Part shown: positions 14,620 to 55,663 of the stretch, one piece after another
How positions within the stretch are numbered: the first letter of the stretch is position 1
How the letters are laid out: each line of letters starts with the position of its first letter
NCBI GenBank assembly: GCA_016795155.1
Contig: JAEUIE010000057.1
Location: 1-64,000 of the forward strand
Length of the DNA stretch: 64,000 nt
Direction: 5' to 3'
Source of the DNA: Planctomycetia bacterium
GTDB lineage: Bacteria; Planctomycetota; Planctomycetia; Gemmatales; HRBIN36
Position numbers and translations under genes: made by a program
The notes under the pieces: generated by a model
Told to the model about the DNA's origin: nothing
Database searches by the model: none
Seen by the model: the letters and a program-made list of their open reading frames with translations, nothing else

Positions 14620-14692
14620 GGGCGTTTAACTCAGCGGCTAGAGTGCTATCCTCACACGGTAGAAGTCACTGGTTCGAATCCAGTAACGCCCA
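14620..14692 (+). tRNA. tRNA-Val (anticodon CAC)
   Basis: A complete 73-base cloverleaf. Acceptor GGGCGTT (14620-14626) pairs with AACGCCC (14685-14691), with discriminator A at 14692. The D arm is ACTC/GAGT. The anticodon stem CTATC/GGTAG encloses loop CTCACAC, giving anticodon CAC. The T arm is ACTGG/CCAGT with TTCGAAT. CCA is not encoded. A phage integrase starts 134 bases downstream, so the 3' half is the probable attachment site. Confidence 0.95.
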
Positions 14693-14777
14693 TTGATTGA
14701 TAATGAACGTAACCCTTTGGCTTATTGCAGTTTGCACACTGCTTCACGGATGAAGCATGAGGCCTGAAAGTGCCAGA

Positions 14778-17148: not shown

Positions 17149-17418
17149 TTATTGTTTCTTCTTTCGCCTGCGGTTCCTTCCACCTGCAAGATCGCAATCT
17201 TTGAATTCGTCCATTGAAACCTGCAGTGCGTTACACAGTAATGCGAGCGTATGGGCATTAGGAGCTTTCGCCAAATCTTGTTTGATCTGGTTGATTGTTC
17301 CTACTGCAACTTCGCCATCCGTGGCTTCAGATAAAGATCTAGCGGTAAAGCCCTTTATTTCCATTAACTCGGTGAGTTTCTCACCGTAGGTCATTAGACC
17401 GGATTCCAAGGTAACCAT
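17149..17418 (-). CDS. XRE-family repressor
   Basis: An 89-residue Cro/C1-type helix-turn-helix protein. The domain fills about residues 10-72: KLTELMEIKGFTARSLSEAT is helices 1-2, the EVAVGTINQIKQDL region holds the recognition helix, and LALLCNALQVSMDEF closes the fold. The C-terminus is basic (RNRRRKKKQ). AGGAG lies seven bases before ATG 17418. It is transcribed away from three palindromic operators and faces the early operon, so it is the likely lysogeny repressor. It lacks a self-cleaving C-terminal domain, so RecA-driven autocleavage of the LexA/C1 kind is not expected. Confidence 0.85.
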   Translation of the reverse strand: MVTLESGLMTYGEKLTELMEIKGFTARSLSEATDGEVAVGTINQIKQDLAKAPNAHTLALLCNALQVSMDEFKDCDLAGGRNRRRKKKQ

Positions 17419-17442: not shown

Positions 17443-17471
17443 ATTTTAGTGGATTTTGTCCGTACTGTCTT
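17443..17471 (-). promoter_or_regulatory. Leftward repressor promoter
   Basis: On the minus strand AAGACA (17471-17466) and TAAAAT (17448-17443) are spaced by 17 bases. The -35 box overlaps the first operator, so the repressor could regulate its own gene. The -10 box is about 25 bases from the repressor ATG. Confidence 0.55.
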
Positions 17472-17513
17472 GACAGTATACTGTCTCGACAGTATTGTAC
17501 TGTCACTACAGTA
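17463..17513. promoter_or_regulatory. Three tandem repressor operators
   Basis: Three 16-bp near-palindromes of form TACTGTC-NN-GACAGTA lie at 17463-17478, 17479-17494 and 17498-17513. The first two have perfect arms; the third has one mismatch (TACAGTA arm). Centre spacings are 16 and 19 bp. They lie between the leftward XRE gene and the rightward early genes, like a phage immunity operator. Confidence 0.88.
17470..17498 (+). promoter_or_regulatory. Early rightward promoter
   Basis: TTGACA (17470-17475) is a perfect -35 box. TATTGT (17493-17498) is a fair -10 box after a 17-base spacer. The -35 lies in the first operator and the spacer covers the second, so bound repressor would block it. 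Confidence 0.7.
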
Positions 17514-17563
17514 TACTGCCGCTCCAGCAGATTTACAACTTTCTTCTTTTCAAGGTGTCCACC

Positions 17564-20194: not shown

Positions 20195-21163
20195 ATGAGT
20201 ACGACAACTTTAGCGCCGTCCACCAATGGGCAGGCACCTGAACAACTTACCAGCAGCCCTACCAAGTCTCTGTTGTCTCGCCTGGGCGAACGCTTTGGCG
20301 TCGATGCCGAGAAGATGCTCGGCACCTTGAAACAGACGGCTTTCCGCCAGCGGGCTGACAAATCTGGGCAGATTAAGGATGTGACCACGGAGCAGATGAT
20401 GGCGCTGCTGATCGTTGCTGATCAGTACCACCTCAACCCGTGGACGCGGGAAATCTACGCCTTCCCCCAGGATGGCGGGATCGTGCCTATCGTCGGGGTG
20501 GATGGCTGGATTCGCATGATGAACGAACACCCGCAGTTCGACGGGGTGCAATTTGTGGACGGCCCGGAAGTGGGGGATAAGCCCAACCTGGTCAACGAAT
20601 GGATCGAGTGCCAGATTTTTCGCAAGGATCGCTCTCATCCGATTGTGGTGCGGGAATACATCGTGGAATGCCGGAAAGACACCGGGCCCTGGCGAAGCCA
20701 CCCTCGCCGCATGCTCAGGCATAAGGCTCTCATCCAAGCGTGTCGCATCGCATTCGGTTTCGCGGGCATTCACGATGAGGATGAGGGACTGACCGTTACC
20801 GATGGCATCGCCACGGTGAAGAAAGCGGAACCACAATGGCCAACGGGCCGCGTCAATCATCGCCTCACGCATTCAGTGAAGACAACTCCGCCTGATGTGG
20901 TGGATGCCACTGCCACGGTATCAGAAGAGTTGGAAGAAGAAACGGCCTTCGACCAGGAAAAGGAAATCCGTCGCCAGGAACTGATCTCCTGGCTCAATGA
21001 CCAGCTCAACAGCGACGTTTCCGATTCGGTGCTGGATGAGGTTGCAGCAAAGCTGCGGGACTCTCACACGATGTTGGGGGCGGACATCATCCACGACATG
21101 CAGCAACGGCTGAACGCCAAGCGGGCGGGTGGTGTTGCTCCGAAGGTGAAACGAAACTTTTGA
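20195..21163 (+). CDS. bet: RecT/Bet-family single-strand annealing protein
   Basis: A 322-residue phage recombination protein of the Bet/RecT superfamily. It would coat single-stranded DNA and anneal complementary strands during phage recombination and replication. Visible signs are LLIVADQYHLNPWTREIYAF, the conserved GGIVPIVGVDGWIRMMNEHP segment, and GPWRSHPRRMLRHKALIQAC with RIAFGFAGIHDEDEG at the end of the domain (about residues 50-215). The C-terminal third is variable and charged. It is paired with an upstream PD-(D/E)XK exonuclease and a downstream SbcC-like ATPase. Confidence 0.93.
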   Translation: MSTTTLAPSTNGQAPEQLTSSPTKSLLSRLGERFGVDAEKMLGTLKQTAFRQRADKSGQIKDVTTEQMMALLIVADQYHLNPWTREIYAFPQDGGIVPIVGVDGWIRMMNEHPQFDGVQFVDGPEVGDKPNLVNEWIECQIFRKDRSHPIVVREYIVECRKDTGPWRSHPRRMLRHKALIQACRIAFGFAGIHDEDEGLTVTDGIATVKKAEPQWPTGRVNHRLTHSVKTTPPDVVDATATVSEELEEETAFDQEKEIRRQELISWLNDQLNSDVSDSVLDEVAAKLRDSHTMLGADIIHDMQQRLNAKRAGGVAPKVKRNF

Positions 21164-23293: not shown

Positions 23294-24397
23294 ATGCAAG
23301 ACAGTTCACGCCATCAGTTTCTGCAGGTGACGGGCAACAGAACAGCCGCCCTCATCCTGGAGTACTTCCTGGTGCTACACAACGGCAAGCGAGCGCGTAA
23401 CCCCGACGAACCAGAAGACTCCCCGAAACTGTGGATCGACTTCACCCAAGATGCTCTGGCCAAGCACTTTCTGGTTTCCGTGGACACAGTAAGTCGTGCC
23501 ATGAAAATTTTGCAGGCGAAGCGATTCATTCACATACACCAGTTCGGCTACGACAGAACCTACCGCTACGAACTGAAAATTGCGGTTATCAATTCAGTGC
23601 GTGACGAAATGCCATTGTTTGAAGGGGAGAATTGCCATCCCCGCAAAATGCGGGCTTCCATCCCCGCAAAATGCGGGCATGCATCCCCGCAAAATGCGGG
23701 CTTCCATCCCCGCAAAATGCCAGATTGTTATCCTTCCATTCCTTCCTTTGTTCCTTCCTCATCATCAGGAGTTGAAGAAGATGAAACTGACGATTGCTCA
23801 AAAGAAACGCCTGCTGTCGTACTCCCTGTTCCCGACGATGCGACGGACCCCGAACGTCAAGACCTCCTCGACCAGTGTGAAGCCGTCGGCATCCACCCAG
23901 AGCACACCGAAGCCCTCCTGCTCGCCCGTACGACGCGCCAGACAGTGAAAGCGGCATTTGCTCACCTGGCGGTGAGATTGCGGCGTGGTGACCGTATCCC
24001 GCAGCCGTACGGCGGATTTATCATCGACTTCTGCCGCGATCCGAAGCGGTGGGAACATGGGGTAGACGAACATGGCTGCTGGGTGCCGCTGCGGGTGCTG
24101 GCAGAAAAGAAGAAACAACGGCGCCAGGCCAAGGCACGTGACAGACCGGACCAGCTGGAAGATGCCAGGCGGGCGGCGTTTGTGGCCTGGGACAGGCTCA
24201 GCTACGCCGAGCAAACCAAGATCAAAGAGCAGATAGAAGCCGAGCACCCGGAGCTTTCAGCGGGAAAGCGTATCGAGATGTGCCGGCAGGAAGCCTTAAA
24301 CAGGAGTAAGCATGCCGACGACCAAGCAGCAGATGACACCAGACCAGAGCAAAGAGCACCTCGACCAGCTTTTGGAGCTGCGACTCGAAGCCAGTGA
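23294..24397 (+). CDS. Replication-initiator-like protein with internal iterons
   Basis: A 367-residue protein. The N-terminal 95 residues contain a winged helix-turn-helix like phage replication proteins: LWIDFTQDALAKHFLVSVDT, then VSRAMKILQAKRFIHIHQFG. Residues about 113-141 are encoded by four DNA repeats of 23-bp period, which puts the same bases in three frames. A Ser-rich linker follows, then a charged C-terminal domain (about 180-350). The layout recalls lambda gene O, where the origin lies inside the initiator gene. A partner helicase loader was not recognised. The 3' end overlaps the next gene by 86 bases. Confidence 0.68.
   Translation: MQDSSRHQFLQVTGNRTAALILEYFLVLHNGKRARNPDEPEDSPKLWIDFTQDALAKHFLVSVDTVSRAMKILQAKRFIHIHQFGYDRTYRYELKIAVINSVRDEMPLFEGENCHPRKMRASIPAKCGHASPQNAGFHPRKMPDCYPSIPSFVPSSSSGVEEDETDDCSKETPAVVLPVPDDATDPERQDLLDQCEAVGIHPEHTEALLLARTTRQTVKAAFAHLAVRLRRGDRIPQPYGGFIIDFCRDPKRWEHGVDEHGCWVPLRVLAEKKKQRRQAKARDRPDQLEDARRAAFVAWDRLSYAEQTKIKEQIEAEHPELSAGKRIEMCRQEALNRSKHADDQAADDTRPEQRAPRPAFGAATRSQ
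23636..23720. repeat. Four 23-bp-period iterons, candidate replication origin
   Basis: CATCCCCGCAAAATGCGGGC occurs at 23636-23655, 23659-23678 and 23682-23701. A fourth copy at 23705-23720 matches its first 16 bases. Each full unit contains the palindrome CCCGCA-AAA-TGCGGG. A pyrimidine-rich run (about 23727-23765) follows. Constant 23-bp spacing, about two helical turns, suits initiator binding on one DNA face. Confidence 0.8.
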
Positions 24398-25163
24398 GCT
24401 GGGGGTGAAGGCGTCCAAGGCCCACGAGGTCTACAAAGACGCCAAGGAAAAATTCGAGCTGAAAGAAAAAGAAATCCAGCAGCACCTCGAGGAGTTGAAC
24501 CAGGAACTGCCACTCTTCGACAAGCCCGAAGAAGTGCCGTTTCCGTTCCCGTTGCCTGATGGTGTTGCCGACGCCACGCTGGCGAACGTCGCCGCAGATC
24601 CAGTGGTGCTGGGGCTCTCGATCGGCATAGTGAAAACAGTGCGGGATGAAATCAACTGTTTCACCCTAGGCCAACTGCAGCACTTCCTGAACGCCAAAGA
24701 GACGTTGAGCCCGGACAAGCAGAAAGAAGCCAAACTGAAGCTGGGGAAACGCATCGGTCCGAACGCGGCGTGGAAGTTGTTCAGGGCGGTGGCCAGCTAC
24801 ACCGGCTCACGCAAGAAGACGACCGGTAAGAAAGCGGACCCAGTGCCAGCTGCGGCGCCCGCGAAATCCGCAGCCAAAACCACCACCAGCGATGAAATCG
24901 CCATGGGGCGCGATACCCTTTGCGCCGACGTGGAAGAGTTGACGCCCACACAAGCTCAGTTCCTGGCTCAATTCAAGATGACCAAAGTGGGCGAGGTGCT
25001 TGATTGGTTCGACCGGATGAACAAGGAACGGCCCGACAACCCACCCAAGGACTACCTGGTCAAGCGGGTGGCCTCTGCCTGTTCGATCACTGACAAAACC
25101 GCGAAAGCGTTGATCGATAGCATTTACAAGTTTGAAGAGAAGTATCTGACAGGGGGTAACTAG
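24312..25163 (+). CDS. Hypothetical protein with N-terminal coiled coil
   Basis: A 283-residue protein. Residues about 10-68 are a charged heptad-like helix (LDQLLELRLEASELGVKASK onward). This is followed by a Pro/Phe-rich linker, a helical central domain (about 105-165), an Ala/Lys/Pro/Thr-rich linker (170-200) and a second helical domain (about 210-280). No family is recognised. AGGAG lies seven bases before ATG 24312, supporting this start despite the 86-base overlap with the replication gene. Confidence 0.65.
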   Translation: MPTTKQQMTPDQSKEHLDQLLELRLEASELGVKASKAHEVYKDAKEKFELKEKEIQQHLEELNQELPLFDKPEEVPFPFPLPDGVADATLANVAADPVVLGLSIGIVKTVRDEINCFTLGQLQHFLNAKETLSPDKQKEAKLKLGKRIGPNAAWKLFRAVASYTGSRKKTTGKKADPVPAAAPAKSAAKTTTSDEIAMGRDTLCADVEELTPTQAQFLAQFKMTKVGEVLDWFDRMNKERPDNPPKDYLVKRVASACSITDKTAKALIDSIYKFEEKYLTGGN

Positions 25164-25594: not shown

Positions 25595-26062
25595 ATGGAA
25601 CTTAACATCAACGGATTGTTGAAAGGTTTGAGTGAGCTGTCTCAGCAACATGTAAGGCTCATCGACCGCGAGATCGAGGTTGCTGAGGAACGGCTGGTGA
25701 TGCTGAACAAGCTGCGGGGCATGTGCCCGCAAGGTAAGAAGTACACCAGCCGTCCAATCGGGAAGATGCTGGAGGACATGAAAACGAAACGACGCAAGAA
25801 ACCGGATGCAGCCAGGCCCAAAAAGAAGCCTGGCGAACCGCTGAACCTGGAAGGCGATCTGATCCCGCACGACACACGGTGCAAGATGATTGCCGGCCTG
25901 ATCGATGCACAAGGAGCCATGACTACAGGTGTTCTCGCGGAATTGATGAAGTGCTCTGTCAAAACGATTTACAACGACATCTATCGACACGAAGAGTGGT
26001 TTGGCCGTGACAGCAATGGCGTCACCCTCACGATTCAAGGGAGAAAGGATTTACTGCAATGA
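25595..26062 (+). CDS. Hypothetical protein with C-terminal helix-turn-helix
   Basis: A 155-residue protein. The N-terminal 45 residues form a charged predicted helix. A Lys/Pro-rich linker follows (KTKRRKKPDAARPKKKPGEP). The C-terminus (about 95-150) has a helix-turn-helix of the DeoR/Rrf2 type: AQGAMTTGVLAELMKCSVKT, then IYNDIYRHEEWF. DNA binding is therefore likely. Its stop overlaps the ParB-like gene start by four bases. Confidence 0.65.
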   Translation: MELNINGLLKGLSELSQQHVRLIDREIEVAEERLVMLNKLRGMCPQGKKYTSRPIGKMLEDMKTKRRKKPDAARPKKKPGEPLNLEGDLIPHDTRCKMIAGLIDAQGAMTTGVLAELMKCSVKTIYNDIYRHEEWFGRDSNGVTLTIQGRKDLLQ

Positions 26063-27702
26063 ACCTGAACACCATTCCCATACAGCAGATCGATACGGAA
26101 CTGATCCGCCTGCGTGATAATAACCGCGATGAAGGCAACGCGGTAGGTGGCCTGCAGGAGATGGCCACGTCGATGCAGAATCACGGCCTTCTGCACCCTG
26201 TGCTACTCAGGCCAGTGAACGACAGCGAATACACCTACGAATGCATTTCAGGCGAACGCCGTCTCCGGGCCGCCTGGGACCTGAACTGGGAAGAGATCCC
26301 CGCCCGTGTCGTGAGTGCTGACCTATCTGTCGAAGAGATCGACGAGCTGCACCTGGTCGAAAACCTGCAGCGGTCTGACCTGACTCCCTGGGAAGAAGCC
26401 CGGCAACTCGCTGACCTGCAAGCGCGTGACCCCGATCAGCGGCTGGAAGACCTGGCCGACAGGGTGGGCAAGTCGCCGACGTGGGTGGCGCAACGCCTGG
26501 CGTTCCACAAGTTGCACCCTGGTTTGCGGGCAATGCTGGTCAAGGAAGAGTGGCCGCTGGTGCAGGTGCAGATGCTGGCCAGAATGCCGCTGCAGTTCCA
26601 GGCGGATTTTCTGGATGGGGTATCCCAAGAGCGTAAAGAGGGGTGGGGTGATTATGGCTCTACCGCTTTACCAGAAGTCCCTGATACTCAATCATTGGCC
26701 CGATCTATCAACGATGCACTTATGCTGCTCAGTCACGCGCCCTGGAAGCGTGATGACGCCAAGCTGCTGCCCGAAGCGGGTGCCTGCAACCAGTGCCCCA
26801 AGCGGTCGCTGGCCCAGAAGTTTCTATTTCCAGAGGTGACTGACAGCAAGAAAGACACCTGCCTGGATAAGGATTGCTGGAGCCGTAAGCAGGCTGCCCT
26901 GGTGATGCTGCAGGTGGAGAAGCTGACCAAAAAGAAAACGCCGCCGGTGCTGCTGTCGGATTATTCCGAAGTGCCCCAGGCGACGAAAGAACGTCTCGGC
27001 GATGTTGAGATCAGGGGGGTACATGATTTCAACGAAGTCACCCAGAAAGACAAAGACGCCCGGCCTGCGGTGCTGGTGAGCGGGCCCGAAGCGGGGAAGG
27101 TGACCTGGGTGAAGGAATGGGCGAAGCCGGTGGCACAGACCAGCCGCCGGCAGGTGGATCAGGCGACGGGAAAACCGGTACCCAAGACGGACAAAGAGAA
27201 GCTGCATGAGCTGCTCTGTAAGCGGCTGTGTGCTGCCGTGGAATTCTGGCGAACAGAATCCCTGAACAGCATCAAGCCGACGCTGGAACGGCTGGTGCGA
27301 CTGGTGGCCGTCATGGGCACCAGGTGGAGTCACCGCATGTGCTCTGATCGCGAATGGAAGGATTACGAAGGCATCGTTGACAACGACCAGAAGCTGGCAG
27401 ACAAGCTCTGGGATGCAATACGGGAAGTGCTGCAGGATCGGGTGAAGCGGACATTACCGATAGTCAATTGTGCGGAAAGCCTCTGGAAGGAAGCAAGGCT
27501 ACAGGCTGAAGCACTGCAGGGGTTTGCTTCCTTTGAGGATTGCTGGAAATCTGCCGTGGATGAAGTGAAGTTTCCCGTGGGGCTGCAGAAGGCAGGGTTG
27601 ACTGATCCGCACACGGTGTTTCCTGAAGCCATTACCTGCCACAAGCCCCTCAATACACCCAAGAAACCACAACCAGCCAAGAAAGGGAAGGGTGCGAAGT
27701 GA
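26059..27702 (+). CDS. ParB-like partition/nuclease-fold protein
   Basis: A 547-residue ParB/Spo0J-superfamily protein. The ParB N-terminal CTPase/nuclease fold covers about 1-110, with the SGERRLRAAW box and ELHLVENLQRSDLTPWEEA. The helix-turn-helix domain covers about 110-170 (LEDLADRVGKSPTWVAQRLA). A Cys cluster (ACNQCPKRS, then DTCLDKDCWSRK, about 242-275) matches long plasmid and phage ParB relatives and probably binds zinc. The C-terminal half is unassigned. No ParA lies beside it, so a role in phage transcription or DNA processing is as likely as partition. Confidence 0.83.
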   Translation: MNLNTIPIQQIDTELIRLRDNNRDEGNAVGGLQEMATSMQNHGLLHPVLLRPVNDSEYTYECISGERRLRAAWDLNWEEIPARVVSADLSVEEIDELHLVENLQRSDLTPWEEARQLADLQARDPDQRLEDLADRVGKSPTWVAQRLAFHKLHPGLRAMLVKEEWPLVQVQMLARMPLQFQADFLDGVSQERKEGWGDYGSTALPEVPDTQSLARSINDALMLLSHAPWKRDDAKLLPEAGACNQCPKRSLAQKFLFPEVTDSKKDTCLDKDCWSRKQAALVMLQVEKLTKKKTPPVLLSDYSEVPQATKERLGDVEIRGVHDFNEVTQKDKDARPAVLVSGPEAGKVTWVKEWAKPVAQTSRRQVDQATGKPVPKTDKEKLHELLCKRLCAAVEFWRTESLNSIKPTLERLVRLVAVMGTRWSHRMCSDREWKDYEGIVDNDQKLADKLWDAIREVLQDRVKRTLPIVNCAESLWKEARLQAEALQGFASFEDCWKSAVDEVKFPVGLQKAGLTDPHTVFPEAITCHKPLNTPKKPQPAKKGKGAK

Positions 27703-29346: not shown

Positions 29347-29774
29347 TTTCGTTCATTGTTTATACGGTACCTGTTGCGATGCCACGCCAGAGAAATCGCA
29401 TCATGTACATCGGCGGCAAGCCGATCAGCCAAAACTACACCCCTGGCAAGCACCCCGTGAACGCTTTCAAGTCAGCGGTGCAGCTCTCAGCTCGAGTGGC
29501 TTACGACGGCCCGCCCCTGGAAGGCCCTGTTTACCTGCAGGCCACCTTCGTGCTGCCCAGGCCACAGAAGTACTGCCGCAAGAAAGACGACCCAGGGCGG
29601 CTGTGGTGTATTGCCAAGCCAGACATGGACAACCTGGTCAAGGCGCTCAAGGACGCATTATCGAAGCTGGTGTTTAAGGATGATTCCCAGGTATGTCGTA
29701 CTATGCAGGGGAAGTTCTACGCCGCCCGTGATGAACAGCCATGCGTGGAAGTGCAGATTGGAGTTATTGATTGA
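29343..29774 (+). CDS. rusA: RusA-family Holliday junction resolvase
   Basis: A 143-residue endonuclease from ATG 29343. RusA dimers cut four-way DNA junctions and clear branched phage DNA before packaging. The family motif is clear: [20 protein letters not shown] with FKDDSQV (about 90-115), containing the metal-binding Asp residues, preceded by [10 protein letters not shown] with basic residues. The length is slightly above the 120 residues of E. coli RusA. It is coupled to the HNH gene upstream (ATGA) and overlaps the sigma-factor gene by four bases. Confidence 0.92.
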
Positions 29775-30328
29775 CAGACTTCCCTATTCCCCTGGCCGAC
29801 GTTCTCAAGATAGCCGATCAGGCTGCCTGGTGGATGTTCAGCAAGACCAAGGGGAAGCTGGCTTTCGCTGATCTGAAGCAGGAAGCGATGCTGGGGCTGA
29901 TCGGTGCCGTGCGAACGTGGAACCCTATCAAATCATCTTTTAAGACTTACGGGAGCACGCGGGCACGGTTTCACCTGATGGACTATCTCCGCAGGCAGGA
30001 TCACCTGACACGGGTGCATCGCAAGAAATCCAAAGGGCACCTGCCGAATGTGTTTTCTTTTCACGCACTAAATGAGGTGGTAACTGATCGGTTGCAAGTC
30101 ATGGTGGACGAGACTGTGGCCGTCCCAGGCAAGTCCACTCTGGAATCAGACTACGCCGAAAGCCTGATCTTGATGGTGAGCAACTACCGGCTGCGGGACA
30201 TCCTTTACCTGCACTATTTTCGCGGCCTGACGTTCAAAGCGATTGGCAAGATCATGGGGATTACAGAAAGCCGCATCAGCCAACTGCACAGGGCGGCGAT
30301 TGAAACTATTCGAAGGAAGGCGGGGTGA
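29771..30328 (+). CDS. Phage-encoded sigma-70-family factor
   Basis: A 185-residue RNA polymerase sigma-like protein starting at TTG 29771. Region 2 (about 25-80) reads ADLKQEAMLGLIGAVRTWNP, then FKTYGSTRARFHLMDYLRRQ, close to the FliA/SigB type. Region 4 (about 130-183) reads RDILYLHYFRGLTFKAIGKI, then GITESRISQLHRAAIETIRR, a clear helix-turn-helix. Region 3 is short. It is nearly last in the rightward early operon and faces the late genes, so it probably redirects host polymerase to late promoters. Those promoters could not be identified. Confidence 0.85.
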   Translation: MTDFPIPLADVLKIADQAAWWMFSKTKGKLAFADLKQEAMLGLIGAVRTWNPIKSSFKTYGSTRARFHLMDYLRRQDHLTRVHRKKSKGHLPNVFSFHALNEVVTDRLQVMVDETVAVPGKSTLESDYAESLILMVSNYRLRDILYLHYFRGLTFKAIGKIMGITESRISQLHRAAIETIRRKAG

Positions 30329-51996: not shown

Positions 51997-54302
51997 TATC
52001 GAGGTCTCCAGAAATATGTTCGGCGTTGGAATGGTGGAGGAGCCTTGCCAGGCAATTCCTCAGCCCCGTAAGTGATGTAAGTCGCCGGAGCGTTTTGAAT
52101 CGTGTACTCAGTGGTCAACCAGTTAGAGTCACGCCGCAAGGTACAGATGCGAAATTCTTCCAGCCTACCGACGAAATAGTTGGTTCGTTCGGCACCAAAC
52201 GAAAGCGTTGATGTCGCAGCACCTGCGTCAAGACCGGCTGACATGGCGTAGGTAGTGCTTCCAGCCGTGCCATTTTTGAAGCCCGTCAATGCGTTACTGC
52301 CATCAAAACTGAAAGCCCAATAGTTCCAGGTGTTTGTGCTACCTGTGAGGTTGAACGAGCCGCCTATCTGCGTATCAGTCTGACGAACCACGAACCCTTG
52401 AAACGCTGTGCCATTAAATCGCATCAGGTATTTGGCGGTGGTAGTGGTTCCATCCCAATTGCCGCTCATACCGTAGTTGGTAGCCGCAGTCAGCGTTGTA
52501 GGGTAAGCCCAGCATGAAACGGTGATAGCCGAGAAACTGGAGATATTCACACCGCTGGCCATCGTTACCGCAGCCGCACTTGGCACTATAGCTTTGTGAA
52601 TCTTACCATCAATCTGTGATGGATTAAGCGTGCCTACGCTTGGCTCGGTCAGCGTCGGCGTGAAGCTGCCACCAGTACCCGCTACATGGTCAAGTCTCAG
52701 CGAATTGGTTCGCAATGACCGGCCATGAATCACCAGCGTGTAATCAGAGAAACAGTTGACAGCATCTTCACCATCACTCGCTGCGCTGTTCCCGTAGTAC
52801 ATGTATATTTCAGTATCGGTACTGTTGGTAATCGTGGGGACTTTCACCCACGCAACTAGCTTCCCCTGCCCAGGTGTGCTAGGGTATGTTCGCAGGCAGG
52901 TGTTGTAGTCCGTGAAACTGGTGTACGTCCCGCACCACCAAGCTAACTTGTAATCCGTATCGCCGCTACGAACGTATCGAGGTCGAGCGTTGACCACGCC
53001 GGAGGGTGAGCCCGTTGTTATTTCTGTACTGGCAGACCAACTCGCCCCACTGTCAGCAGTCGTATACAGACGAATATCCCAGCCGCCGCTACTGTTCTTG
53101 CGGCTTACCGCACATTCATTAACGTTGGACGGATTGATAGCGATACCACCACTGTATTCAGCTTCTCCGGAGTACAGGTAATGCGGAACTGAAGTTCCAC
53201 CGTCGGCAACGCTAATTGACGTTACTGATTGCCACGAAGAACCATTCCACCGCGATTGCCGATAAGTATGCGTATCTCTCGTCGTGCTAGTCGTGGTATA
53301 GGTCGTAAAGGCTGCAACAGGATAGCCACTGCCATCAATTGCAATGTCGTTACCCCATGCCCTTGTGCTTGAACCATCCCAGACCTGCGTTGCCGCAGAT
53401 GGAGCGAAAGCGGGAGTCAGTGTTGAGCCAGCAGAGTTGTAGTATGTAACTGTGCCGCCAGTGGACGAATGGTAAAAGTGATAAAGGCTATTGGCTACTT
53501 CGTTCGGCTGACCTGTGGAGATTAGAAAGTCAATTCGCGTCGTACCATTCTGAACGGCATGGAAATACGGCCTCTCAGTTGAGTTGTCAACAATCTCAGT
53601 TCGGCTTCCCCATGTAGCCCCATCATCAGTAGATACAAGCCTGAAAAGTGAACGATTCGTGGAGGCATCGCCACTCTTCGCTTCCATGTAGTACAGGTAA
53701 ATCCTGTCGCCATCACCCGACAACTGGAAGATAGCCGGATAATTGTAGCCGGTTGCCCCCGACGCCGCATTGACTCGACTCGCCCATGATGCTGCACTGC
53801 CCGCACTGGACGATGTTCGTGAATAAAGCGTTGTACCGTTGTGCAGACAGTAGCTCACCAACAGTTTGCCGCTGGCCAGAATCTTAATGCACGGCTGGCT
53901 ATGGTCATCACTATTAACAGCGTAATCAATGTAGTAAGGTGTTGCTGTGCCGGTTGCATGGTCGTATTCGACCACCCCTACATCACCAGCCGCATTAACA
54001 AAAGTTGTCCATGTCTTATCGTAAGTGGAACTGTACTCGGCAACATGGCCACCAAACCAAGTCCATATGCCGTTTTCATGTAAATGCGGGTTAAATTCTA
54101 CGCGGTCATAATCTAACTCAGTCGTGCCGTCACTGCTGGTAAATCGCAAGTCTCTGCCATCCCATACCGTCTTATCTCTCAGGCTGGTGTCGCCTGAGAT
54201 AAGAATGGGAATCGGCATGTTGGAATGCGAGCTACCCGTCACCGCTGCGTTATCGAGCGTGATTTTCTTACGATACAGCCAGCTTGAGTTGAACCAACCC
54301 AC
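51996..54302 (-). CDS. DUF2341 / sialidase-like propeller / LamG fibre protein
   Basis: A 768-residue protein. Residues 1-75 begin the DUF2341 domain (WLYRKKITLDNAAV, GRDLRFTSSDGTTELDYDR). Residues about 75-480 are a BNR-type propeller with Asp-box-like LVSTDDGATWGSRT and YTTADSGASWSAST. DUF2341 then seems to resume (LVAWVKVPTITNSTDTEIYM, YYGNSAASDGED). Residues about 575-745 are a LamG/concanavalin-like sandwich. It is probably a glycan-binding tail fibre or receptor-binding protein. Catalytic sialidase residues could not be confirmed. Confidence 0.75.
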   Translation of the reverse strand: MGWFNSSWLYRKKITLDNAAVTGSSHSNMPIPILISGDTSLRDKTVWDGRDLRFTSSDGTTELDYDRVEFNPHLHENGIWTWFGGHVAEYSSTYDKTWTTFVNAAGDVGVVEYDHATGTATPYYIDYAVNSDDHSQPCIKILASGKLLVSYCLHNGTTLYSRTSSSAGSAASWASRVNAASGATGYNYPAIFQLSGDGDRIYLYYMEAKSGDASTNRSLFRLVSTDDGATWGSRTEIVDNSTERPYFHAVQNGTTRIDFLISTGQPNEVANSLYHFYHSSTGGTVTYYNSAGSTLTPAFAPSAATQVWDGSSTRAWGNDIAIDGSGYPVAAFTTYTTTSTTRDTHTYRQSRWNGSSWQSVTSISVADGGTSVPHYLYSGEAEYSGGIAINPSNVNECAVSRKNSSGGWDIRLYTTADSGASWSASTEITTGSPSGVVNARPRYVRSGDTDYKLAWWCGTYTSFTDYNTCLRTYPSTPGQGKLVAWVKVPTITNSTDTEIYMYYGNSAASDGEDAVNCFSDYTLVIHGRSLRTNSLRLDHVAGTGGSFTPTLTEPSVGTLNPSQIDGKIHKAIVPSAAAVTMASGVNISSFSAITVSCWAYPTTLTAATNYGMSGNWDGTTTTAKYLMRFNGTAFQGFVVRQTDTQIGGSFNLTGSTNTWNYWAFSFDGSNALTGFKNGTAGSTTYAMSAGLDAGAATSTLSFGAERTNYFVGRLEEFRICTLRRDSNWLTTEYTIQNAPATYITYGAEELPGKAPPPFQRRTYFWRPR

Positions 54303-55663
54303 TACTTAACCTCAAAGACTTTAAGAAACGCATCCGTGTGGTCTATTGTCGATTCCAGCAGGTAGAGCAGTTTGCCATCAGGAGACAACTCTTGCCCGCG
54401 AACCGTGCCGCCCTGCCATTGCTTCCAACCCTTGTGTTCATGGGTCACAGGGTCGTAGCGATGCAGGTAAGTGATAGTGCTTGCTGCGAAAGTCGAGTTC
54501 TGCCTTGCATAGTTCAGGTCGCCCACGCCGGTCTGCACCCAGAAATACACTCCGGATGAGTGACGGAACCCGCCGCCCCAGATGCGGTCACATGCCCATC
54601 GGCCAAACAAGCCGGTCGTGTCAGTAATGGGAAACGGAGCTTTCACGCCGTTGGCATCGCGGGGAGTGAGGCATACCCACGAATCTTTCCCATCGAACGG
54701 CCAGTAGTTTGGTTCGCGGGGAGTTTTCTTTTCCCAGACGTTGTCTTGCGTGTTGTGGATTAAAACTGTCCCATCCTGCTTCGCAAGATTCGGCCCGTAG
54801 CCCCAGCCTTGGCCACTTTCATACCCGCCGCCGCCGAGTTCCAAAGAGGCCAGTCCTTTGACGAATCCGGCAAACTTCTGACGCTGAACAGGAAATACTT
54901 TCGTCTCACCATCGCTGGCATACCAAGTGGTTACTGCTGGCTGCTCTTCCGGCTTGGTTGCGTAGCCATGCCTTGGGCTGCACCACAACTTGCCATCAAA
55001 GAACGCCAACCCGTAGCCATAGCCAACGAATACACCTGCAGAGTTCTTCCACCAGCCAGGCAGGATTTGGCTTGTCAACACCCTTGGCCATTGAAGCGGG
55101 TCGCTACCAACGCCCTGAGTAGGCAACTGATACTCATTGACCTCGTGTCGCTGCCCATGCCCTACCATGTAGAGTTTGCGTGCCGCATGGTCGATTGCAA
55201 TTGCACCACGGGCATAATCGCCGTCAATTCGCCAGCCGCCTTTGAGTTCAAGCGTGAGTTCGGTAGCAGGTGGAGGGGGAGGAGGTGGCGGGGGTGGAGG
55301 GGGAGGTGGAGGCGGGGGAGGAGCAGGTGTTTCCAACGCTGCCACCCTTGCCGCCAGTTGTGCAATCGACGCTTCAATCGCATCGAGGCGATTCTTGTGC
55401 AATATGATGCTAGCTTCCAGTGCCGCGACTTTCAACTTCTCAGCATTTAGTTCAGCCTGCAATGCCTGGCTGACTGCCTTCTGCGCCGCCATGTCCGTTT
55501 CAAGCGTGGCAACTTTTGCTTTCTGTGCCATCAGTTCAGCAGCAAGGTTATCGGCCTTCTGCTTGTTGGCGGCGATGTCGGCCTGCATCGACTCCAGAAC
55601 CCCCTGTGAGAACACGGGGGCAGCGAGCACTAGAACCAGCAGTAATACACTCAGACGTTTCAT
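54302..55663 (-). CDS. Secreted protein: coiled coil, polyproline, propeller
   Basis: A 453-residue protein with a signal peptide (about 1-19, MKRLSVLLLVLVLAAPVFS). Residues 22-112 are a heptad coiled coil rich in Ala, Leu and Lys. About 19 Pro come next (about 113-133, interrupted only at the start by Ala). The C-terminal domain (about 138-450) has repeated Trp/Tyr-rich strands like a beta-propeller (WRIDGDYARGAIAIDHAARK, YLHRYDPVTHEHKGWKQW). Export is unusual for a virion protein, so it may act on or modify the host surface. Confidence 0.7.
   Translation of the reverse strand: MKRLSVLLLVLVLAAPVFSQGVLESMQADIAANKQKADNLAAELMAQKAKVATLETDMAAQKAVSQALQAELNAEKLKVAALEASIILHKNRLDAIEASIAQLAARVAALETPAPPPPPPPPPPPPPPPPPPATELTLELKGGWRIDGDYARGAIAIDHAARKLYMVGHGQRHEVNEYQLPTQGVGSDPLQWPRVLTSQILPGWWKNSAGVFVGYGYGLAFFDGKLWCSPRHGYATKPEEQPAVTTWYASDGETKVFPVQRQKFAGFVKGLASLELGGGGYESGQGWGYGPNLAKQDGTVLIHNTQDNVWEKKTPREPNYWPFDGKDSWVCLTPRDANGVKAPFPITDTTGLFGRWACDRIWGGGFRHSSGVYFWVQTGVGDLNYARQNSTFAASTITYLHRYDPVTHEHKGWKQWQGGTVRGQELSPDGKLLYLLESTIDHTDAFLKVFEVK

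Follow-up and report, generated by a model that had tools for sequence, protein, structure and literature searches.

A gene at 23294-24397 contains, within its coding sequence, a series of closely spaced inverted repeats, which raises the question of what these repeats do at the level of DNA. The earlier note had proposed that they form a phage replication origin, bound by the product of the gene in which they lie. We examined this proposal in the window, i.e., the whole stretch of 64,000 nucleotides that was analyzed, lying at the start of a contig of 135 kb, and compared the locus with lambda and with viral loci from IMG/VR.

Exact matching revealed four copies of CATCCCCGCAAAATGC, which started at 23636, 23659, 23682 and 23705, were spaced by exactly 23 bp and spanned 23636-23720. 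Tandem Repeats Finder reported the array at 23635-23720 with a period of 23 and a score of 158, the highest among 28 rows in the window. Copies 1-3 extended to CATCCCCGCAAAATGCGGGC, and copy 4 consisted of the left part only, ending in ATGCCAGATTG. The full 15-bp dyad CCCGCA-AAA-TGCGGG was thus present in three of the four copies. All iterons were read on the forward strand, at 23637-23655 (dyad CCCGCAAAATGCGGG at 23640-23654), 23660-23678 (dyad at 23663-23677), 23683-23701 (dyad at 23686-23700) and, for the partial copy, 23705-23720. As 23-mers, copies 1 and 3 were identical, while copy 2 differed at two positions, both of which fall in the spacer. These results confirmed the exact period and, in the three extended copies, the CCCGCA/TGCGGG palindrome that the earlier note had described.

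In 100 sequences of 64 kb generated by a first-order Markov model, the best Tandem Repeats Finder score was 64, and when the codons of the open reading frame were shuffled 300 times, it was 52. Among 2000 synonymous recodings of the protein, 1960 lacked the 16-mer, 40 had one copy and none had two or more. The array is explained neither by chance nor by coding. Outside the array, no further CATCCCCGCAAAATGC site was found in the 64-kb window at up to three mismatches, and the 5.28-Mb genome held seven sites at up to two mismatches, namely the four array copies and three lone sites on other contigs. A search of 392 genomes of the phylum for the array pattern returned one genome, that of this prophage itself. 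Three full dyads and one partial dyad at a period of 23 bp correspond to the lambda-type pattern of inverted repeats of ~18-20 bp spaced by 20-24 bp, and several iterons lie inside one gene, as in a lambda-type in-gene origin, for which the product of this gene would be the initiator.

The array sits in the early, rightward gene block of a prophage. A 44-bp segment from the 3' part of tRNA-Val (14620-14692) is directly repeated, at 14651-14694 on the forward strand and at 65111-65154 of the contig (C57), the latter 1.1 kb beyond the window. These two sites mark the bounds of a prophage of ~50.5 kb. Its genes include an integrase beside the tRNA, an exonuclease, RecT, an AAA protein, a ParB-like protein, RusA, a sigma factor, an HNH nuclease, a major head protein (phrog_29, 1.1e-14) and a terminase-like protein (0.0011, under its cut-off). 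The RecT-type annealing protein (20195-21163) was found in one of the 392 phylum genomes, its own (E limit 1e-10), so that this type of prophage is rare in the sampled phylum.

Several other features of the prophage were observed. The 16-bp palindrome TACTGTC-NN-GACAGTA occurs three to four times at 17463-17518, between a Cro/CI-type gene that is read leftward (17149-17418; Pfam HTH_26, 1.5e-6) and an open reading frame at 17495 that is read rightward; these copies look like the immunity operators of the prophage. The 547-aa ParB-like protein (26059-27702) was closest to the ParB of PRTRC systems (4e-29, under its cut-off), and it is encoded here in an integrated prophage. A 185-aa sigma-70-like protein with regions 2 and 4 (29771-30328), encoded at the end of the early block and near the leftward late genes, is possibly a phage sigma factor. 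Finally, a G-rich low-complexity array of GGN units on the forward strand (55268-55329) lies within a leftward open reading frame (54302-55663) that has a weak match to minor head proteins.

The gene that holds the array encodes, on the forward strand, a 367-aa putative replication initiator with weak Pfam and PHROG matches. It is predicted to consist of a winged helix (residues ~1-105), a disordered linker (78-184) that includes the iteron-encoded part, and a helical C-terminal part, such that the array follows the predicted winged helix in the gene. The predicted disorder of segment 78-184 is what one would expect if this linker accepts any peptide sequence. Pfam HTH_Crp_2 matched the protein at 3.7e-5 (24 bits, under its cut-off of 27), HTH_36 was likewise under its curated cut-off, and PHROG 186, a DnaD-like helicase loader, matched the N-terminus at 3.5e-4; O-like PHROG matches were weak (E 0.07-0.13). 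The full-length model (pLDDT 50) was too poor to search for folds in the middle of the protein and in most of its C-terminal half, and a model of the N-terminal domain was used instead (pLDDT 70, pTM 0.65); the order of elements in this model, H-H-E-H-H-E-E-H, is that of a winged helix. Among solved structures, the top rows included 4pql ("N-terminal domain of DNA binding protein"; Z 9.0, rmsd 4.0, 102 aligned) and 4pt7 ("Structure of initiator"; Z 8.6, rmsd 3.9, 99 aligned), both of which we take to be RepA proteins. These two were tied with CRP, ArsR-type and other winged helices, and the predicted model thus supports the fold class and not the family. In a viral library, several named rows of the fold search were replication initiators, including a replication protein O. 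Altogether, the Pfam and PHROG matches and the predicted model support the N-terminal winged helix that had been suggested from the sequence.

No match to Phage_rep_O (PF04492) was observed in the window at E <= 0.1, while the lambda O control gave 5.7e-36, and RepA_N (PF06970) was also without a match in the window at E <= 0.1. Searches for homologues of the putative initiator returned none in 60 relatives besides its own genome, none that was real in the 392 phylum genomes, and none in phage records or IMG/VR. Two weak matches in phylum genomes (L011 and L012) proved unrelated on reading. Judged by these searches, the putative initiator is an orphan without recognizable relatives. A 283-aa open reading frame on the forward strand (24312-25163) overlaps the end of the gene and occupies the position of the lambda helicase loader, a role that its product might share; it had no Pfam match and only weak PHROG and NCBIfam matches.

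The placement of iterons inside gene O of lambda, which the earlier note had cited as known, was borne out by the lambda record (J02459), which annotates four iterons inside O with periods of 20, 24 and 23. The prophage dyad shared 12 of 15 bases with lambda iterons 1 and 3 and 11 of 15 with iterons 2 and 4. For random dyads, the probability of reaching 12 of 15 against any of the four lambda iterons was 0.0015-0.017, depending on the null and composition assumed.

Pattern scans of IMG/VR yielded eight distinct loci, and in two of them (L031 and L041) a winged-helix-like open reading frame holds the array; in the other six it is intergenic or in other reading frames. A pattern scan of genome contigs gave eight stretches, none of them in a winged-helix-like gene as judged by eye. 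L031 (the same as L022; IMG/VR 3300045450_000241) has a 341-aa open reading frame in which a winged helix is followed by six iterons, one of which is the identical CCCGCAAAATGCGGG, with spacings of 18, 26, 22, 23 and 23, in all three frames and with varied centers. Its best PHROG matches were replication initiation proteins (9.5e-5). Two relatives of L031, L032 and L033 (43% and 45% identity), carry other dyads in the same place in the gene: L032 has TGGCAGAATCTGCCA spaced by 22 bp or another multiple of 11, and L033 has the CCGGAAATTCCGG type at 23 bp. In L041, CCCGCAnnnTGC dyads are irregularly spaced in a reading frame that was judged winged-helix-like by eye. Outside the helix-turn-helix, the L031-L033 initiators gave no alignment to the prophage protein, and a profile comparison gave a probability of 4%, yet their dyad arrays are in the same place.

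A strict dyad detector found the arrays of the initiator gene, L031, L032 and L041 but missed those of L033 and lambda, whose iterons are less perfect. Host-contig DNA (71 kb), five viral loci related by RecT (L013-L017) and 10 shuffles of the window gave no detection. Homologue searches with L031 and L033 returned only Orf5 of Leptospira phage LE1 (E 5e-3 and 6e-3). An excerpt of PMC4338851 describes Orf5 as having a helix-turn-helix and reports that rep genes compared to it are sufficient for replication in Leptospira. As no iterons were found within a gene of LE1, Orf5 is a lead only.

An excerpt of PMC7466680 describes the AT-rich tract next to the lambda iterons as crucial for unwinding. 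Directly 3' of the prophage array, a candidate unwinding element at 23721-23790 on the forward strand is 60% AT and 60% pyrimidine. Compared with 70-mers from the gene and from 1 kb on either side, its AT content is at the 99th percentile, and it is weaker than the 67% of lambda. With the same reference, taken as far as each locus reaches, the 70 bp 3' of the array were at the 98th percentile in L031, 99th in L032, 96th in L033 and 98th in lambda; since L031-L033 are related, these five AT-rich cases, with the prophage, amount to about three independent ones. The 3' neighbor in L041, of which only 52 bp are left before the contig end, was at the 49th percentile and has no AT-rich stretch. Furthermore, when the eight least stable 50-mers were separately picked from 4.1 kb, those starting at 23758 and 23714 ranked fourth and fifth. 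Cumulative GC skew showed no turn at 23.7 kb and was uninformative, and the four DnaA boxes in the window are at chance level, with none near the array.

The earlier note had further argued that, since 23 is not a multiple of three, the copies encode three different peptides and selection acts on DNA and not on protein. The peptides themselves were as described: the reading phases of copies 1-4 are 0, 2, 1 and 0, and the encoded segments are HPRKMRA, SIPAKCG, ASPQNAG and HPRKMP. However, the frame by itself does not prove selection on DNA, because three added 23-bp units make 69 bp, a multiple of three, and a tandem expansion would keep the frame. The array could accordingly be a neutral and recent expansion by slippage, with which the near identity of the copies (19-23 of 23 positions) would agree. 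As the frame argument is incomplete, evidence for kept DNA has to come from relatives. The earlier note had proposed a comparison with related prophages. Close relatives of the prophage protein were not found in our searches; L031-L033, which are kin of each other, could be compared in their place. In their alignment, the iteron segment is poorly conserved as peptide and its flanks are better kept (by eye), and the dyad array stays in the same place, with different letters in L032 and L033. Judged by sequence, this pattern is the opposite of the outcome that the earlier note had named as contrary to its reading, i.e., peptides kept and DNA repeats lost, though these proteins are not kin of the prophage protein. 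Slippage also does not readily yield the identical 15-mer with varied centers and irregular spacings of 18-26 in L031, and in the prophage both differences among the three full copies fall in the spacer. We therefore consider neutral expansion scarcely credible.

Two further explanations assign the array a function other than replication. It might be a partition site, i.e., a parS-like centromere bound by the ParB-like product of 26059-27702, and no origin. parS sites are dyads and can be arrayed, and this protein has a ParB_N domain (NCBIfam parB_part, 2.3e-26) and is encoded 2.3 kb downstream of the array in the same element. However, a ParB_N domain was present in none of the four IMG/VR array records (L031, L032, L033 and L041; possibly fragments), and the tRNA and attachment repeats point to integration and not to a plasmid state. 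The array is inside a winged-helix-like gene in the IMG/VR cases and inside gene O in lambda, where its function is known (PMC7466680, in excerpt), and a partition site seems to us very unlikely. Alternatively, the winged-helix protein could repress its own gene through the array as an operator, or the array could act as hairpins in the mRNA. The commonest structural matches were winged-helix regulators of the Crp, ArsR and MarR types, and the single strand of the array, folded with DNA parameters, was more stable than shuffles (z -2.9). Nevertheless, the first site is 343 bp into the gene, and neither the gene start nor the rest of the window has a copy, which makes such a role improbable; no Rfam family was found at the array, and the combination of four to six sites in tandem and an AT-rich neighbor fits an origin better. 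As a sole explanation, we regard an operator or RNA element as extremely unlikely, although in-gene binding could regulate as well, and these readings do not exclude each other.

Altogether, by analogy with lambda O, our results support the interpretation that the array is the replication origin of the prophage, bound by the product of the same gene, with subsequent opening and helicase loading as proposed below; we put the probability of this at roughly 0.85. The place of the array, its dyad and period, its AT-rich neighbor and the predicted winged-helix N-terminus match the lambda O layout, and the same layout was found in four other phages (lambda, L031, L032 and L033). From the observed repeats and their position, we infer the following steps. 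Dimers of the gene product would use the N-terminal winged helix to bind each of the 15-bp dyads, with one dimer per 23 bp, or about two helical turns, and a nucleoprotein complex would form over the four sites. Opening of the AT-rich stretch immediately 3' of the array would follow, and the host helicase would be brought in for theta replication by the C-terminal half of the protein, acting by itself or together with a loader, possibly the product of 24312-25163. As a precedent, lambda O is described as dimeric, binding four 19-bp iterons and forming an O-some (PMC3985674, in part).

None of the papers listed by literature searches dealt with this element. In-gene iterons, and different iterons in distantly related initiators, have already been published (excerpts of PMC8022706); what is new here is a predicted in-gene iteron origin with an orphan initiator, and the arrangement itself is known. 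This would extend in-gene iteron origins to a prophage whose initiator lacks recognizable relatives, and it would provide a candidate replicon for building plasmids in a poorly studied host lineage.

The comparison also led us to consider whether such initiators carry a portable cassette, i.e., a winged helix with matching iterons in the next ~120 bp, in which the letters of the iteron follow the recognition helix. The predicted recognition helices of the prophage protein (DTVSRAMK) and L031 (DTASRAVK) are similar and go with an identical 15-mer, although the C-terminal parts of these proteins do not align, whereas those of L033 (DTANVAVK) and L032 (KSRETIAE) go with other dyads. That identical iterons accompany similar recognition helices is a hypothesis drawn from four proteins only, and the residues common to the prophage and L031 helices are also common in Crp-type helices. 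We consider the cassette rather doubtful. If it were true, one could predict an uncultured phage's origin sequence from its protein, and the reverse, and the cassette would have passed between unrelated initiators. A recognition code linking winged helix to iteron becomes testable through this comparison, in which one dyad is shared by initiators that lack alignment beyond the helix-turn-helix, and related initiators differ in their dyads.

Among known systems, the origin in lambda O and its relatives in Stx phages is similar in having four dyad iterons in mid-gene after an N-terminal DNA-binding domain (PMC7466680 and PMC3985674, each in excerpt), with periods of 20-24, an AT-rich tract 3' of the array and an iteron core that is up to 12/15 identical. 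The prophage differs in that its protein has no Phage_rep_O match and no P protein is recognizable, and in that its period is exactly 23 with near-identical copies, the arms of which are CCCGC versus CCCTC in lambda. The RepA_N initiators of pSK41 are likewise described as having an N-terminal winged helix that binds four Rep boxes central in rep (PMC5703833, in part), but there the replicon is a plasmid and here it is a phage, and the prophage initiator has no RepA_N Pfam match. The L031-L033 loci differ in C-terminal parts that do not align to the prophage protein, and they share the order of winged helix, dyad array and AT-rich stretch, with the identical 15-mer in L031. Finally, gene 18 of P22 and phage L, likened here by its description in part of PMC8022706, has different iterons in each distantly related initiator gene, and the same rule is seen among the prophage, L031, L032 and L033.
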